This document shows positions 46,267-62,560 of a stretch of 64,000 nt of DNA, one piece after another (position 1 is the stretch's first letter; every line of letters begins with the position of its first letter). Below the pieces are notes generated by a model that made no database searches, was not told the DNA's origin, and saw nothing but the letters and a program-made list of their open reading frames with translations. The translations under genes and the position numbers were made by a program. Origin of the DNA: Rhodothermales bacterium (lineage in GTDB: Bacteria; Bacteroidota; Rhodothermia; Rhodothermales; JANQRZ01); NCBI GenBank assembly GCA_028284265.1, contig JANQRZ010000019.1, positions 372,001 through 436,000 on the forward strand. The letters run 5' to 3'.

Positions 46267-47244
46267 ATGGCTTTCCCCCCCCGGCGTCCACGCGCCCTGT
46301 TCACGCACTTTAGCCAGGGCCTGCTGATGGGGTCCGCCGACATCATCCCCGGCGTGAGCGGCGGCACGATGGCGCTGATCATCGGCATCTACAAGAACCT
46401 GATCGACGCTATCGGCGAGGCGGTGACGGCGGTGCTGCTCCTCGTGCGGGGCCGCTGGCGCGAGGCGTGGGCGGCAGTCCTCGCGCTGGAGTGGAGCCTC
46501 CTCCTCCCGCTCGCGGCAGGCATTTTCCTCGCCATCGGGATCGGCTCGCTCTTTATCCCGGAGTTGCTGGACCGCTACCCGGTGCAGTGCCGGGCGCTGT
46601 TCTTCGGCCTCGTCGCCGGATCGCTCGTGATCCCATGGCAGGAGCGGCGCACGCACCGAGGCTGGCACTACGCGATCGCCGCGCTTGGGGCCACCGTGGC
46701 GTTCCTGCTCGTCGGCCTCCCGCGCAGCCCCGACCTCGCCGACCCATCGGCGCTGCGGATCGGGTTGACGGCGGCGGTGGCAATCAACGCGATGATCCTG
46801 CCCGGCGTGAGCGGGGCGTTCCTGCTCGAAGTCCTCGGCCTCTACCGGACGACGCTCGAAGCGCTACGCGATCTCGATATCGGCTACGTCGCCGTCTTCG
46901 CCCTCGGTGCGGGTCTCGGCCTCGGAGCCGTGGCGAAGCTTCTCTCGTGGCTCCTCGACAAGCACCACGACCTCACGATGGCCGTCCTCGTCGGCCTCCT
47001 CGCCGGGTCGCTGCGGGCGCTCTGGCCCTGGGTTGGATTCGTCGAGCACACGAGTTCGGACGGCGCGATTGAGGCGGTTCCCGATCCGTCGCAGCTACTC
47101 ACGCCGGGGCCGGAGTGGCCGGTCACCCTCGTGCTCGCCCTCGGCGGCTTTGCGTTCGTGACGGCGCTCTCATGGCTAGGCCGCCGCCGCATCGCCGCGG
47201 GCAATGAAGTGCTGGCCGAGGAACACAAAGACGCGCGGGTTTAG
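46267..47244 (+). CDS. DUF368 family undecaprenyl-phosphate translocase (PopT-like)
   Basis: A 325-residue inner-membrane protein with eight or more helices. The family signature is the N-terminal SADIIPGVSGGTMALIIGIY, and a second internal copy of the motif, AMILPGVSGAFLLEVLGLY, shows the inverted-repeat build of the family. DUF368 proteins have been reported as translocases that return undecaprenyl phosphate to the cytoplasmic face for wall and glycan synthesis. The gene's TAG stop overlaps the TAA stop of the converging BMC-P gene (bases 47241-47244 read TTAG). Confidence 0.9.
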   Translation: MAFPPRRPRALFTHFSQGLLMGSADIIPGVSGGTMALIIGIYKNLIDAIGEAVTAVLLLVRGRWREAWAAVLALEWSLLLPLAAGIFLAIGIGSLFIPELLDRYPVQCRALFFGLVAGSLVIPWQERRTHRGWHYAIAALGATVAFLLVGLPRSPDLADPSALRIGLTAAVAINAMILPGVSGAFLLEVLGLYRTTLEALRDLDIGYVAVFALGAGLGLGAVAKLLSWLLDKHHDLTMAVLVGLLAGSLRALWPWVGFVEHTSSDGAIEAVPDPSQLLTPGPEWPVTLVLALGGFAFVTALSWLGRRRIAAGNEVLAEEHKDARV

Positions 47245-47516
47245 CCAGAGAGGTTCACCTCATCTACAACGCCGACAATCGTGGCGTCGGTAGCGGTGAC
47301 ATCATTCGGGGGGCGAAAGGGGATGGCAGCTTCGGCGCTGGTGACGTAGATCACCCGATCGCCGGGTCCGGCATCCACGGTATCGAGCGCGGCGATGGCT
47401 CCGCCCTTCGGTGTGCCGTCGAAGCAGAGCGGCTGGACGAGCAACATCCGCTTGCCTTCGAGCGACGGGTCCTTCCGCGTCGCCCACACGCTCCCAATGA
47501 CGTGACCTAGGTTCAT
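47241..47516 (-). CDS. EutN/CcmL family microcompartment vertex protein, copy 1
   Basis: A 91-residue pentameric BMC-P protein, the type that caps the vertices of bacterial microcompartments. It starts MNLGHVIGSVWATRKDPSLE, the canonical first strand (VxGxVxATxK), and has the AGPGDRVIYVTSAEA segment that forms the pore-side turn, ending with ATIVGVVDEVNL. It follows a second BMC-P gene on the same strand. No hexamer (BMC-H) or signature enzyme is encoded in the window, so whether a shell is built is open. Confidence 0.88.
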   Translation of the reverse strand: MNLGHVIGSVWATRKDPSLEGKRMLLVQPLCFDGTPKGGAIAALDTVDAGPGDRVIYVTSAEAAIPFRPPNDVTATDATIVGVVDEVNLSG

Positions 47517-47579: not shown

Positions 47580-47873
47580 TCATTCACCCAATGACGCAAC
47601 CGCGTCCTCGTCCACGTCGAGCCGGTCGACAATCGCCATAATCACGGCATCGACGGGTTTGCCTTTCGTCAGTTCGGTCTGCCGCCCGCTCGACCCCTGC
47701 GCCACCAGCACGACCTCACCGACGCCCGCCCCGACCGAGTCCACTGCCACGACGAAGTTCGCCTTGTCCTCCAAGTCCAGCCCGACCTCGCGCACGATCT
47801 GGAACGTCATGCCGACGGTCTGCTCGTCCTTGCGCGTGGCCCAGACAGTGCCGATGACTTTACCGAGGATCAT
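47580..47873 (-). CDS. EutN/CcmL family microcompartment vertex protein, copy 2
   Basis: A 97-residue BMC-P protein, starting MILGKVIGTVWATRKDEQTV and containing VGAGVGEVVLVAQGSSGRQ, then AVIMAIVDRLDVDED. It is clearly related to copy 1 but differs in the central loop and has a longer C-terminus. It lies 12 bases after the thioesterase gene and 63 bases before copy 1, so the three minus-strand genes probably form an operon. Two different vertex proteins in one operon are known from microcompartment loci, where they may mix or occupy different vertices. Confidence 0.88.
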   Translation of the reverse strand: MILGKVIGTVWATRKDEQTVGMTFQIVREVGLDLEDKANFVVAVDSVGAGVGEVVLVAQGSSGRQTELTKGKPVDAVIMAIVDRLDVDEDAVASLGE

Positions 47874-48332: not shown

Positions 48333-50273
48333 CTAGACCGGCTCCTCCAGTTCTTCGATATCTACCACTCGCGGACCAGCCAGCGCATCCGTCCGTGGCA
48401 GGCGCACGGTGAATGTCGAACCTATGCCCTTGGTGCTCTCAACCTCGATGGTCCCGCCCATCAGTTCGACGAGCCGCTTGGTGATGGACAGGCCGAGGCC
48501 GGTGCCCTCGTGCGAGCGCTCCATGCCCGTGGACTCCTGCTTGAAGTTGTCGAACAGGTACGGCAGGAAGTCCTCGCTGATGCCGATGCCCGTGTCGCGA
48601 ACCCGGAGCACGGCCGCGTCCGGCTCGACGTCGATCTCGGCGACCACCTCGCCCTCCTTGGTGAACTTGATGGCGTTGCCGATCAGGTTGACGCAGACGC
48701 GGTGCAGACAGTCCGGGTCGGCGGAGGCCCACACCTCCGGCGTGACTTCGTGGAGCGCGAGGCGAAGGCCCTTGCCGAGCGAAAGAGGTCTTAGTACGCT
48801 GATGGCATCGGCGACTTCGTCGGCCACCTCGACCGGCTCGGGCTGCGGGTGCAATGCCCCGGCCTCGATCCGCGCCATGTCGAGCACGGAGTTGATCGTG
48901 CCGAGCAGGCGAATGCCCGCGCGGCCCATCGTCTCGACCATCTCAAGGTGCTCGCCATCGAGTTCGCCTGTGAGCACCTGCGCCGAGCCGATGATGCCGG
49001 TGAGCGGCGTGCGGATCTCGTGGCTCATGTTGGCGAGGAAGTTGGACTTCAAGCGGCTCACCTCCTCGGCCTGTTCCTTGGCCCGGATCAACTCGGCCTC
49101 GAAGAGTTTTTGCTGCGTCACGTCCTTCGCCACACACACGATGCCCTGCACCTCGCCCTCATCCCCTGTCATCACCGCGGCGGAGAAGGCAACGGGCAAC
49201 TCAGCCCCTTCGCGCTGCTGCAACGTCGTCTCCCGGTTGCCCGAGTAGCCACGCCGGAGCACGTTGGCGAGTAGGTCGTCGGTCTCGATCATCCCACCGG
49301 TAAAGACGAAACCGAGCGGCCGTCCGATGAGCATGTCTTTCTCGTAACCCAGTGTATCGACCACCGCATCGTTCACCATCTCGATGGTACCCTGCTCAGT
49401 AATCACAAAGAGGGGATCGGCCATCGAGTGGAGAATGGTGTCGAGGTAGTGCTTCGAGACCGTGGTGTGACTGAGGGCCTCGGCCATCGTGTTGAAGGCC
49501 CCGGTCAGCGCACCGACCTCATCGTCCGAGCGCACATCGAGGCGGAAGTTGAGTTCGCCGCGCCCGATCCGTTCGGTCGCCTTCATCAGCGAGAGGATGG
49601 GCGTGGAGATCGAGTTGGCGATGAGGATGCCCAGCACGAGGGTCATGCCGATGGCGAGAAGTACCGCTACGAACAGCATCCGGTCGGCGCGGGCGAGGTG
49701 GGCACGAACGGCCTCGGTCTCGGTGCTGAAGGCGAGGTCCACGCGGTTCCGGTACTGCGTGAGTGGCGGCAACATGGCTTTCTGGACATGCGGCGTGACC
49801 GTCTCGGCGAGGAATGCTCGGGCCTCCCCTGGTCGCCGGACTGACAGGTCGATGAGCCGCTCGACGTGCTGCTGGTAGGTACTGAAGCCGAGCGCCAGTT
49901 CATCGACCCATGCCAGCCGATCACTGGCCTCGGCGAGGTCTTCTTCCCGTCCCCACGCCTCGGCACGAGCACGGGTACCGGCAACCACCGAGCGCCCTTG
50001 GGCAAGCTGCTGTTCGAACCGGATGAGCGTATTGCGAAGCGCCTCCGCCGAGGCCGCGCCCCGGCGCGCCACGAGATCTTGCGCCAGCGACTGGCTCTCT
50101 CGCAGCGCCAGCGTCATCTCGATGGCGTGGTTCGTCTCCAGCGCGGCCCCTTCGCTGAGTTGGAGAACGCCGTACTCCACCCGGCTATTCATCACTTGCG
50201 CCACGTAGCCCACACACCCAACGAGCAGGGCGACGAGCGCGAATCCGAGAAGCAGCTTCTGGTAGAGTTTCAT
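48333..50273 (-). CDS. Membrane sensor histidine kinase (HAMP-PAS-HisKA-HATPase)
   Basis: A 646-residue sensor. Two membrane helices (about 7-27 and 198-218) enclose a helical periplasmic sensor of the four-helix type. A HAMP domain follows ([20 protein letters not shown]), then a PAS domain (about 275-390, containing [20 protein letters not shown]), HisKA with His418 in [11 protein letters not shown], and the ATPase domain with [23 protein letters not shown] and [14 protein letters not shown]. No receiver is fused, and no response regulator lies next to it, so it is an orphan kinase. Confidence 0.93.
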
Positions 50274-50453
50274 CAGCGGAGACTTGGCCGCGCACTAGGC
50301 GCTTTGTCGGTGATAGAACCCCTGTCCGTCTTGCCCGATTCTCGACGGCCTTTGGTCAAACCGGCACGACCACTTACAGAGGGTATTAAAGAACCGGGCG
50401 TGAGGTAGGATCGAACCAAGCGGTGGTAAAATTTGCCTCCGGCGGCAGGTCGT

Positions 50454-50693
50454 TCAGTCGCTCATCCGGCGGTCCCACCACACGAGCATCCCCTCTTCCG
50501 TTCGGCCAAGGGGAGCACCGGCATCGCAGTACTCACTCCACAGCATCGTGCGGATCTGAGCGGTATAGGCCGGTTCGCCATCAGTAAGGCGCAGAATTCG
50601 GCTGATCATACGGACCCGGCTGGACTCGGCCGTGGCAGGCCCGAAGGAAGAAATAGCAGTGGACTGAGACATGAGCTTGGAGAGTTGGTTCAT
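50454..50693 (-). CDS. Small hypothetical protein
   Basis: A 79-residue open frame starting MNQLSKLMSQSTAISSFGPA and ending WWDRRMSD. Composition is protein-like, with a helical, Arg-rich centre (RVRMISRILRLTDGEPAYTA). I do not recognise it. It lies alone between the sensor kinase and the AT-rich control region, whose divergent position could make it co-regulated with the oxoamine synthase. An earlier in-frame ATG at 50720 is possible. Confidence 0.4.
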   Translation of the reverse strand: MNQLSKLMSQSTAISSFGPATAESSRVRMISRILRLTDGEPAYTAQIRTMLWSEYCDAGAPLGRTEEGMLVWWDRRMSD

Positions 50694-50738
50694 CGTGAGA
50701 GCACGGCTCCCTAATTCCATGCCACCCACTTGGCCCAT

Positions 50739-51065
50739 GGCACTCGCCCGACGAACACCTACTCAACTTCGACCAAATAGCAAAATATTTAGACGAAATG
50801 CTATTTTGGATCGACGAAATACTGAGAGCCAATACACCAAAGGTTCTCATCTCCTTGTGAATTAAAGTTTTTTACTTCAAGCCATCCACCTTGCTCCAAG
50901 CTGCTGCTTACTCACATCTTAACAAGGAAAGGCGCATTAATTATTTCATATGGGTTTCTTTTGCACCGCAATGTGCGTTTATTTAAGACACGCGCTTTCC
51001 TCTAGGTCGCTTTGAAGGATTCCCCCAGGGCTTGGGGTGTCCTCGCCTACCCCACCCCCGGTCCT
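50739..51065. promoter_or_regulatory. AT-rich control region upstream of the oxoamine synthase gene
   Basis: This stretch is much richer in A and T than the rest of the window and codes for nothing convincing. It holds three direct repeats at 21-bp spacing (separate entry) and, at about 50960-50987, a TTTG followed 16 bases later by TATTTAAG, a weak match to the Bacteroidetes promoter (TTTG near -33, TAnnTTTG near -7). Composition suggests a strongly regulated promoter or a xenogeneic segment. Confidence 0.5.
50771..50820. promoter_or_regulatory. Three phased direct repeats GAC(C/G)AAAT, 21-bp period
   Basis: GACCAAAT at 50771, GACGAAAT at 50792 and GACGAAAT at 50813 are spaced exactly 21 bp apart, two helical turns, so all three face the same side of the DNA. 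An inverted pair AAATAGCA/TGCTATTT overlaps the first two. This is the layout of sites for a cooperatively binding activator or response regulator. No regulator gene is adjacent. Confidence 0.55.
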
Positions 51066-52445
51066 ATGAGTAACCCGAGCACTGCGGACGGCAGCATACC
51101 GTTCGAGCACGAAGCCATTGAGCATCTTGACCTGAACGAGATGATGCAACGGGCCAAGCCGATGCGGCTTGCCGAACGCACGCAGTTTTTCTCTACGTGG
51201 ATTCGAGGGCTTCACCAACGTGGGGGCAGCCTGCACCTCCGCCCCATCGGCTCTGTCACGGACCGCGTCACGGCGGTCGGCAACCACAACACGGACGAAA
51301 TGCGTCCGATGTTGATGTTCGGCTCGAACTCGTACCTCGGCCTGATGTCGCATCCCTACGTGCGGCAGAAAATGAAAGAGGCGATCGACGAGTATGGCGT
51401 GGGCCTGAGCGGATCGCCGCTGCTCAATGGGCGTGGCGTCTTGCATGTTGAGCTTGAAGAGCGAATCGCGGCACTCAAAGGGAAAGAAGACGCCCTCGTC
51501 TTTCAGAGCGGCTACGGGGCCAACGTCGGGATGCTTTCGCTTCTGGCAAGCCGTCATGACTATATCCTGTGCGACAAACTCAGTCATGCCTCGTTCCGGG
51601 ACGGGATGCGAATGAGTGATGCCCGCACCCGCACCTTCCGGCATAACGACACGAGTGACCTTGAACAGGTTCTCGACCGCCTCGCAGACAGCACAGGCGA
51701 AGCGTTCGTCGGTGTCGAAGGCGTCTATTCGATGGACGGCGACTTGGCTCCGCTCGACGAGATCGCGCCGATCTGCCGCAAGCACGGAGCCTACCTCATC
51801 GTGGACGATGCCCACGGCACCGGCGTCACCGGGCCGGGCGGCACCGGCACGGCCTCGCACTTTGGGGTCACCGATGAGGTGGACCTCATTATGAGCACGT
51901 TCTCGAAATCATTTGGTGTAACAGGCGCTGCGATTGCCACCACGCGGGCTATCGCTGACTTCATGCGCTACTATGCGCGCAGCTACGTCTTCTCCTCGTC
52001 GCTCCCTCCATCCTCAGTGGCGGCTGTCCTGGCGGGCCTGGACGTGCTGGAGCGCGAGCCGGGACGCGTCGAGCTGCTTCGCCACCTGATGGCCTACACC
52101 GCCCGCGGACTGCGGCAAATTGGCTTCGAGTTGCCCGAACCAGAGTCGGCAATCATCGCGCTGCGGACACCGGAGGGCATGCCGATCCGCGAAGCCATCG
52201 TCGAGCTAAACCAGAACGGCGTGTTCCTCAACTCCATCGAGTATCCGGCGGTGCCCCCCCACGAGGAGCGCTTCCGCATCAGCCTGATGGCGACCCATAC
52301 CGAGGACGACATCAACCGCTTCCTAGAAATCTTCGCCGAGGTGTGGGATAAGTACGCTCCGGAGGAGCACCGCCTGAGCCGCTCCGGTCCCCTCAACCTC
52401 CCGCTATCCGGCGACGGCCAGGTGGGGTCCGAGCCTGAACTCTAA
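51066..52445 (+). CDS. Alpha-oxoamine synthase (serine/cysteate acyltransferase type)
   Basis: A 459-residue PLP enzyme condensing an amino acid with an acyl-CoA with loss of CO2. Family motifs: MFGSNSYLGLMSHPYVRQ, FQSGYGANVGML, VDDAHGTGVTGPGG and the PLP Lys281 in STFSKSFGVTGAA. The extended N-terminus (about 75 residues before FGSNSYLG) and C-terminal tail are longer than in bacterial biotin (BioF) enzymes and resemble serine palmitoyltransferases; in Salinibacter-type bacteria related enzymes use cysteate for sulfonolipids. The amino-acid substrate cannot be read from sequence. ATG 51066 was chosen over an upstream in-frame ATG (51012) in Pro-rich leader sequence. Confidence 0.85.
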   Translation: MSNPSTADGSIPFEHEAIEHLDLNEMMQRAKPMRLAERTQFFSTWIRGLHQRGGSLHLRPIGSVTDRVTAVGNHNTDEMRPMLMFGSNSYLGLMSHPYVRQKMKEAIDEYGVGLSGSPLLNGRGVLHVELEERIAALKGKEDALVFQSGYGANVGMLSLLASRHDYILCDKLSHASFRDGMRMSDARTRTFRHNDTSDLEQVLDRLADSTGEAFVGVEGVYSMDGDLAPLDEIAPICRKHGAYLIVDDAHGTGVTGPGGTGTASHFGVTDEVDLIMSTFSKSFGVTGAAIATTRAIADFMRYYARSYVFSSSLPPSSVAAVLAGLDVLEREPGRVELLRHLMAYTARGLRQIGFELPEPESAIIALRTPEGMPIREAIVELNQNGVFLNSIEYPAVPPHEERFRISLMATHTEDDINRFLEIFAEVWDKYAPEEHRLSRSGPLNLPLSGDGQVGSEPEL

Positions 52446-60144: not shown

Positions 60145-62394
60145 CTACTTCAGCATCGTGATCCGCTGCGTCTGTACCTGAGCGCCCACCTCCAAGCGCA
60201 CAAGGTAGACGCCGCCCGCGAGGTTCGATCCGTCGAAGGCGACCTCGTGATGACCTGCTTCCGCGATGCCGTCGGCGAGCACAGCCACCTCACGCCCGAG
60301 CACGTCATAGACCGCGAGCCGCACGTCCGCGACCTCCGGCAGCGCGAAGCCGATCATCGTCGAGCGAGCGAAGGGATTGGGGTAGGCCGGTGCAAGCGAT
60401 ACCGCTTCGGGCAGTGCCGTCGAGGCTGGGGCTTCAGGCGACATGGCCTCGATGAGCGGTGCCAGCCCGGCGTCGGTGTGCCAGTCGGCGAGCGCCGTCA
60501 CGCCCTCCCGTGCCGGGGCGGCCTTGGTGAACCCGAACGCGCCCTGCGCTACGATGGTGTCCGGGAACGTGCCGAGCCGGACGAGCGCCGTGTAACTTCC
60601 CGCCGGAGCCAGCGCTGGGACCACGCCCTGAAGCGATACCGGCCCGACGTTCGCCCCCACCGGAAGCGTGATTGCGCGCGGCCCCTCGACCGGCCCAATC
60701 GTGTTGCCGCTCGGCAGGACCACGTTCACCCACGCATCGAGCGGCTGCACCGCGCCACTCTCGTTGGCCAGCCGGACCTGATAGGTAAACGAGTCGCCTC
60801 CCGCCGCGACCGTAAGCGGCTCACCCGGCACGCCGACGCGCGCTTCGAGACCGTCCAAGACGCGCTCATAGGCTCCGATGTCCACGCCGAGGCCATCGAC
60901 ACGCGGGTTTCCGGCGAGGTCGAGCGGGAGCGTCTCGCTCGTGTTGCCGTCGTCGTCGAGGTCGGCGGTGTCGTCGGGGAGCACCGTCCGGTCGCCCTCG
61001 TCCACGGCGGGCGAGGCCGGGAGGAGCGTCAGGTCGTCGTCCGGCGTGCCTGCGATGTCATCTACCCCATCGGCATCCGCGAAGAGTGGGTCCGCGACGA
61101 AGTTGCCTCCGATGTCGATGATGTCGCCCTCCCGAATCCCGACGCCGGTTTCGACACCCTGCATAAGGCTGTGACGGAAAGTACCGAATGCCCCTCGGTC
61201 GGCGAGATAGACCCCGGCCCCTCGGCTTGCTTCATTGCCCCAGAAGATGACGTTGTCGTAGAAGGACTCTGTCGAACTGTCGATGATGTTCCCGTTTGCA
61301 TAGACTCCGCCGCCGTCTGTGGCTACGTTGCCAGCAAACGTCACATTCGTGAACGAGGCCTCCGCTCCACCGCTACCCGGAACTGCCAGATGAACTCCAC
61401 CGCCCTGCGATGCCTCATTCGCAGAGAAAACGGAATTTATGAACATAGGACGTAAGTCGAACTTACTCGCCACGTAGATTGCACCGCCTTGATCTGCACT
61501 GTTTCCGTAGAACCTCACATTCGTAAAGGGTGGACCGCTGGGCTCATCACCTCGTTCCTCATCCCGAAGTCCACCCACGAGGTCTTCCAGATTGATGGCT
61601 CCACCAGCACTCGCTGCCGTGTTTTCCCGAAACACAACATCGGTAAAGGTGAGACAGTAAGGTGCTCCTAGTTCAGCTTTGATAGCCCCTCCTCCCTCAT
61701 CGAAGCGACCAGCTAGCGCTCTATTTCCTATGAAGGACACCTTGTCCAAGACCAGCCGCTCAAAAGAGTTTATGCTAATGGCGAAGGCGGCCCCACCTCC
61801 CTCATCAGCACTATTGCTGACAAACACGAGTTGACGTAACCGAACTATACAAGTCTGCGTGTCCGAAAACGTCTCGTACAGGAGCCCACCTCCTGATCTA
61901 CCTTCCGCGTTGCCTCCTCGTATAGTGAAGCCATCGAACGTCAATGGGGGCTGAGGCTTCCCAAATATGCAACCTGTTACCTCGTTGCTCATTCGTACGA
62001 CGTGGTAGCTGTTCTCCTCGTTGCCCGCGAAGTCCGGCCCGTCGTTTCCGGCGAGGTCGCCCGATAGAATCGTCTCATACAGTTCAGGGTCGCGTTGGGC
62101 AGGCGTGCCGCCACCAGCGGGAAAGCCACCGTAGACATCGACCCGGCTCGGGATAACAAAGGACGCCTCGCGGTCGCCGGTGCTGCTCGGCGTGTAGGTG
62201 CCTTCGGCGACGGCAACCTCATCGCCACTACTGGCAGCAGCGAGGGCATCCTGAAGGTCGGTGAAGGCATTCGCCCACGAGGAGCCGTCGTTGGCCCCAG
62301 TCGCGGACTGGTCCACGTAGTGTACGGTTTGCGCCAGCGCAGGCGTGGCGAGGAGGCCGAGCAGGCATAGGCTGGACAGTAGAAGTCGATACAT
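60145..62394 (-). CDS. Secreted right-handed beta-helix protein with T9SS sorting domain
   Basis: A 749-residue secreted protein. ATG 62392-62394 opens the signal peptide MYRLLLSSLCLLGLLATPALAQ. Residues about 25-470 have the short, Asn-, Gly- and Thr-rich rungs of a right-handed parallel beta-helix (VHYVDQSATGANDGSSW, then FVSNSADEGGGAA-type and FRENTAASAGGAI-type turns). A choice-of-anchor-like part ends VDIGAYERVLDG, as in many polysaccharide lyase- or adhesin-like beta-helix proteins, but no catalytic motif is clear. A T9SS type A domain closes the protein (AYPNPF, VYDVLGREVAVL, AGGVYLVRL, ending MLK). Confidence 0.85.
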   Translation of the reverse strand: MYRLLLSSLCLLGLLATPALAQTVHYVDQSATGANDGSSWANAFTDLQDALAAASSGDEVAVAEGTYTPSSTGDREASFVIPSRVDVYGGFPAGGGTPAQRDPELYETILSGDLAGNDGPDFAGNEENSYHVVRMSNEVTGCIFGKPQPPLTFDGFTIRGGNAEGRSGGGLLYETFSDTQTCIVRLRQLVFVSNSADEGGGAAFAISINSFERLVLDKVSFIGNRALAGRFDEGGGAIKAELGAPYCLTFTDVVFRENTAASAGGAINLEDLVGGLRDEERGDEPSGPPFTNVRFYGNSADQGGAIYVASKFDLRPMFINSVFSANEASQGGGVHLAVPGSGGAEASFTNVTFAGNVATDGGGVYANGNIIDSSTESFYDNVIFWGNEASRGAGVYLADRGAFGTFRHSLMQGVETGVGIREGDIIDIGGNFVADPLFADADGVDDIAGTPDDDLTLLPASPAVDEGDRTVLPDDTADLDDDGNTSETLPLDLAGNPRVDGLGVDIGAYERVLDGLEARVGVPGEPLTVAAGGDSFTYQVRLANESGAVQPLDAWVNVVLPSGNTIGPVEGPRAITLPVGANVGPVSLQGVVPALAPAGSYTALVRLGTFPDTIVAQGAFGFTKAAPAREGVTALADWHTDAGLAPLIEAMSPEAPASTALPEAVSLAPAYPNPFARSTMIGFALPEVADVRLAVYDVLGREVAVLADGIAEAGHHEVAFDGSNLAGGVYLVRLEVGAQVQTQRITMLK

Positions 62395-62560
62395 GGTGCC
62401 GGAAGAATGGATAAGAAGAAGCCCCGTGCGCCACGGAGGCACACAGGGTTATGATACGGGCACGCGACCCGCCGTCAAAGGAGAACCGGCGTCACCGTAT
62501 GGTTATCTCTGGCGCATCCAGCGCGCTACGCTTCGCGAGAGGCTGTCCCCATAAATCCAG

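Follow-up and report, generated by a model that had tools for sequence, protein, structure and literature searches.

A 21-bp phased repeat array in a Rhodothermales bacterium is a probable operator for a LytTR response regulator

The DNA analysed here, referred to as the window, is a 64,000-nucleotide stretch from a Rhodothermales bacterium. Among the proteins read, a T9SS-type tail domain and a serine palmitoyltransferase match point to the Bacteroidota/Rhodothermota side. An intergenic segment of the window contains short direct repeats spaced by exactly 21 bp. Our comparisons make it probable that this array is the operator of a LytTR response regulator, encoded at C20:15687-16454 of the same genome, which would activate a gene for a 79-aa protein, a wecB operon and a flagellar NtrC-type regulator. 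The site is of a known kind; the regulon is one not described before, and a literature search found no LytTR study for this bacterial order. Coordinates are listed in Table 1.

The GC content of the region from 50739 to 51065 is 46.2%, and that of the window as a whole 64.1%. Over 400 kb of the contig, just 3 places are equally AT-rich across 327 bp. Another AT-richer stretch of the window (61201-62100, ~55% GC) is the first part of a minus-strand gene (60145-62442) for a repeat-rich secreted protein that has a sorting-like tail at its C terminus. A sequence-only reading of the window had noted the sharp contrast in composition, together with three GAC(C/G)AAAT motifs at exactly 21 bp. Both observations hold, and the second was understated. 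Thus, GACCAAAT is found at 50771-50778 and GACGAAAT at 50792-50799 and 50813-50820, and a fourth, degenerate GAC repeat occurs at 50750, within CCGACGAACA, one period upstream in the same register. Set in 21-bp rows, the full repeat unit approximates to TCGACGAAAT. None of 2000 dinucleotide shuffles yielded an 8-mer triple of equal quality, whatever the pitch between 10 and 40. Similarly, a weight matrix of the unit, built partly from the window's own copies, scored 43.6 for three copies here at 21 bp, and with other pitches never exceeded 24.6 in 400 kb of contig. The array was missed by a tandem-repeat finder, and an Rfam scan of this region of the window gave no match above chance.

Table 1. 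Positions of the repeats, neighbouring features and sister arrays. Coordinates are those of the window unless a contig is named.
Feature	Position	Strand	Remarks
Repeat copy 1, degenerate CCGACGAACA, proximal to minus-strand gene	50748..50757	+	21-bp register; edge 30 bp upstream of predicted -10 hexamer
Repeat copy 2, TCGACCAAAT	50769..50778	+	21-bp register
Repeat copy 3, TAGACGAAAT	50790..50799	+	21-bp register
Repeat copy 4, TCGACGAAAT	50811..50820	+	21-bp register
79-aa gene, predicted target	50454..50693	-	ATG 50693; no Pfam or NCBIfam match; three-helix AlphaFold model
Block TGGCATGGAATTAGGGA	50708..50724	-	17 bp identical in G001 (pairwise alignment of orthologous gap); probable core promoter of 79-aa gene
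Predicted -10 hexamer GAATTA	50712..50717	-	Inferred; offset 30 from copy 1; without usual last T
Possible terminator after 79-aa gene, GCCGCCGGAGGC then AAATTTT	50426..50447	-	Read from sequence
Alpha-oxoamine synthase, serine palmitoyltransferase/BioF/KBL type	51066..52445	+	Pfam Aminotran_1_2; NCBIfam best match serine palmitoyltransferase, below its cut-off
Conserved block TTTTGCACCGCAATGTGCGTTTAT, probable oxoamine synthase promoter region, separate from array	50959..50982	+	Alignment with G001
Array (a), the window's array	50748..50820		Orthologous pair with G001 gap
Array (b)	G000 C20:6956 / G001 C18:45490		Upstream of wecB operon
Array (c)	G000 C5:43122 / G001 C14:44253		Upstream of flagellar NtrC-type regulator

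We compared the window's own genome (G000) with a relative from the same genus (G001) and one from another genus of the family (G002). In the orthologous gap of G001, TCGAC occurs three times at exactly 21 bp (L003 1184, 1205 and 1226); the pitch is kept, and the intervening and most surrounding DNA has diverged. In a blastn comparison with G001 the flanks of the window align and the repeat zone does not, so the conserved spacing was recognised only by reading registers. The oxoamine synthase leader of G001 also has a perfect TTATCCACA, a DnaA-box sequence, at L003 ~1406-1414 that is absent from the window; a DnaA-box explanation was dropped because this sequence is not conserved. Both flanking genes are present in G002 and the array is absent.

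A degenerate triple search of the three genomes ranked highest, at 2 mismatches or fewer, exactly three arrays each in G000 and G001, and found nothing comparable in G002. Reversed-pattern controls gave 0-1 matches. The remaining matches were the same arrays in shifted register, or GC-rich coding-like coincidences. The three arrays form orthologous, syntenic pairs. The search for the motif elsewhere in the genome, which the sequence-only reading had proposed, yielded two further arrays in G000, both syntenic in G001. There are 3-4 copies in the window and 3 in the syntenic arrays, at a pitch of exactly 21 bp in both genomes of the genus and 20-22 bp in other families. A scan of a contig database with the degenerate triple was uninformative (at least 119 matches scattered over many phyla), and a 10-mer pair search returned mainly coding coincidences.

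The operon downstream of array (b) has all its genes on one strand, in an arrangement kept in G001. In order, it encodes WecB (UDP-GlcNAc 2-epimerase), a YaiO-like outer-membrane protein, a protein of unassigned family, a secreted DUF11 protein, a hybrid kinase (HisKA-HATPase-REC-Hpt) and, as the last gene, the LytTR response regulator. Just upstream of array (b), L087 1501-3782 encodes a PgaC/IcaA-like glycosyltransferase, then a weak bactofilin-like protein. Directly downstream of array (c), and adjoining a kinase, is the gene for an NtrC-type σ54 response regulator with a Fis-type HTH. It lies in a flagellar cluster, the genes of which were recognised by reading proteins.

LytTR proteins were searched for because of the array pitch; other regulator families were screened unevenly. 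A LytTR regulator is proposed because two-turn direct repeats mark the sites of such proteins, which bind 8-13-bp direct repeats ~12 bp apart (PMC4064291). The window array consists of imperfect direct repeats, and agrees in copy number and spacing with LytTR-type sites, which have two or three copies, spacers of 10-13 bp and an approximately two-turn pitch. There are 4 LytTR proteins in G000, 6 in G001 and 3 in G002. The C20/C18 protein (80% identical) is the only one common to G000 and G001 that has no orthologue in G002. Thus, the two genomes with the array have this regulator, and the array-free genome is without it.

Orthologues of the C20 protein occur in several other families of the order (49-54% identity, weaker ones 43-45%). 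We searched 60 genomes for exact TCGACGAA pairs at a 20-22 bp pitch; the reversed-pattern control gave 0 matches. In genomes with a C20 orthologue, 14/16 array sites are within 35 kb of it (binomial 3e-23), or 6/7 when counted per genome (1.4e-7), with the proviso that matches from related genomes are not independent. One of the 14 near sites, G045 C4:61542, lacks the features of a promoter and is probably a chance match in coding DNA. In four families the LytTR gene is the arrays' common partner. Genes downstream of sites in other families encode OEP polysaccharide export proteins, Wzz/GNVR chain-length proteins, glycosyltransferases and epimerases; the G045 cluster includes Wzx- and Wzy-like proteins. 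The association is incomplete in both directions. No array could be recognised near the close LytTR orthologues of G012, G023, G005 and G019, and for the arrays of G058, G099, G100, G076 and G109 the stretch read contained no LytTR orthologue. In G099, G100 and G058 (L276, L277 and L282-L283), the gene preceded by the same array and -10 layout is conserved and encodes a porin-like protein of the outer membrane. G024 also has a perfect array of three TCGACGAA copies at 21 bp (L267, C1:2104628), far from any LytTR gene; this array is without the usual -10 T, and could be coding or a separate target.

The arrays have a defined relationship to promoters. Every array tied to a gene is read by that gene as (G)TTCGTCGA, in one orientation throughout. 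With arrays aligned on the gene-proximal repeat, an A occurs at offset 31 and a T at offset 35, corresponding to the -11 A and -7 T of a -10 hexamer. In 16 of 18 promoters, mostly from other families, the distance from the end of the array to a downstream ANNNT -10 hexamer is exactly 30 bp (offset 31), and no other offset reaches 4. In held-out arrays ANNNT was at offset 31 in 6/7 cases, compared to 1/9 for coding chance matches (Fisher 0.006). A compound-pattern search of the order found 18 sites in 11/114 genomes, with 1 control match; most sites had already been seen, and four genomes were new. Since the -10 offset is fixed, the predicted end of the array is immediately 5' of the -35 region, the position expected of an activator that contacts RNA polymerase. 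For the other arrays in the window's genus, the distance from the proximal repeat to the putative -10, assigned by eye, is about 17-21 bp, or approximately one turn less than 30. The window array lies directly upstream of a probable core promoter, at the 30-bp offset, only by virtue of the weak copy 1 and of a predicted hexamer, GAATTA, that is without the final T. This hexamer sits inside the 17-bp block identical in G001. A σ70 consensus scan found no promoter.

On the basis of orientation and distance, the window array probably serves the minus-strand 79-aa gene. This gene occurs in all three genomes of the family. Its product matches no Pfam or NCBIfam entry; the AlphaFold model has a confident three-helix core, and a fold search with the model found no structural match. 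A terminator scan of the window did not detect the possible terminator in Table 1. In G001 the corresponding position does have a terminator-like site, and the 79-aa gene may therefore be a single-gene unit that need not include the kinase gene beyond. That kinase gene (48333-50273, minus strand) encodes a HAMP-PAS histidine kinase, and we noticed no adjacent response regulator. Further along the same strand, two side-by-side EutN/CcmL microcompartment vertex proteins (47241-47516 and 47580-47873) adjoin a 4HBT thioesterase.

The sequence-only reading suggested a strongly controlled promoter for lipid head-group synthesis, or a bound architectural protein. A controlled promoter, with protein on one DNA face, is well supported by the recurrence of the arrays, their kept pitch and their fixed place relative to the -10 element in relatives. 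The lipid gene is probably the wrong target. Control of the plus-strand oxoamine synthase by the array, whether of this gene only or of both genes through a divergent promoter, is improbable in our view. The array does lie in the gap between the two divergent genes, and operators can work in both directions, but in all gene-linked relatives the orientation points to the minus strand, and on this ground control of the synthase was set aside. Moreover, a conserved block of the synthase's own lies 140 bp beyond the array, and G002 retains both genes without the array. No related array was found upstream of an oxoamine synthase outside this locus, and a contig-database scan for relatives of the enzyme returned nothing. 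The AT-rich region, with A/T runs near helical phase, could suggest intrinsically curved DNA bound by an HU/IHF-like protein, with no sequence-specific regulator. Such a purely architectural explanation is very hard to credit. The arrays of other families are GC-rich, yet have the same 8-mer and pitch, so AT-richness is incidental, and the conserved part is TCGACGAA rather than an A-tract. Replication-origin iterons or a decaying tandem repeat have the least claim, and we give them almost no weight. There are ~21-bp direct repeats beside AT-rich DNA, with TTATCCACA nearby in G001, but the window does not share that sequence. Rather than one place per replicon beside a Rep gene, each genome has arrays at three distinct chromosomal sites, all of them preceding a gene; we noticed no Rep gene beside the arrays, and the flanking genes read were metabolic, signalling or structural. 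Sequence between the repeats is not conserved, unlike in a tandem duplication, and recurrence and promoter phasing argue against both explanations.

A more serious competitor, though still an unlikely one, retains the promoter role (as an activator or repressor site) and assigns it to another DNA-binding family: an OmpR-like or NtrC-like regulator, or the flagellar σ54 activator acting on its own promoter. Consistent with this, one of the three arrays is directly upstream of the NtrC-type regulator, and some arrays occur in genomes with no LytTR orthologue close by. Conversely, both the two-turn direct repeats and the CGTTCGTC core are as expected for LytTR sites. Arrays in four families share the LytTR gene as partner, and the genes scanned in the G045 cluster include no regulator other than the LytTR protein and its kinase.

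Known LytTR systems provide close parallels. CoxC and RcoM bind repeat triplets two turns apart, and their operators resemble the window array in that three short direct repeats occupy a single face at intervals of 18-21 bp (PMC11347149). The RcoM/CoxC repeats differ in sequence (TTCNNGCA / TTNNNGCN), and these proteins are one-component sensors, of which CoxC represses; the window's genus has 3-4 copies and probable activation by a response regulator. AgrA sites lie directly upstream of the promoter (PMC4227749). AgrA/ComE-type sites share the ~9-bp direct repeats, the 12-bp spacer and the position just upstream of the core promoter, but are usually pairs, and serve Gram-positive regulators. 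Proximal AgrA repeats are centred near -60, whereas the proximal repeat here is predicted nearer -47. The AlgR consensus is CCGTTCGTC (PMC4064291). This core is common to AlgR boxes of Pseudomonas and to GCGTTCGTCGA of related arrays, which shares 8/9 positions with it; the window's ATTTCGTCGA shares only TTCGTC, and the motif of the window's genome (TTTCGTCGA) resembles the LytTR consensus less closely than does that of other families. AlgR is likewise a response regulator of an exopolysaccharide, alginate; its sites differ in being mostly single and scattered, not phased arrays (PMC4064291).

Taken together, we infer binding by the LytTR protein, activation rather than repression, a phosphorelay and a role for the 79-aa protein. 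The window array would be a head-to-tail operator of four ~9-10-bp sites, one per two helical turns. Activated by phosphorelay through the hybrid histidine kinase, the LytTR regulator would line up cooperatively on one DNA face. The subunit nearest the promoter would lie immediately 5' of the -35 region, and RNA polymerase would be recruited to the -10 box downstream. Here, the bound array would drive the minus-strand 79-aa gene. Through the two further arrays, the same regulator would control its own wecB operon and the flagellar NtrC-type regulator, so tying surface polysaccharide to motility. More tentatively, and with rather less than even confidence, we suggest an order-wide promoter class. 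In this class, a head-to-tail LytTR oligomer on 2-4 sites, ending at a constant distance of 30 bp (or one turn less) from the -10 element, would act as one switch over exopolysaccharide synthesis, the flagellar σ54 hierarchy and a previously unknown three-helix small protein.

One odd intergenic repeat has thus led to a predicted regulator, DNA code, target list and promoter geometry for a bacterial order. LytTR proteins are known mainly from paired sites, and the three- and four-site arrays would help in studying their assembly. The proposal is a testable one that connects surface polysaccharide and motility with a gene to which no function is assigned.
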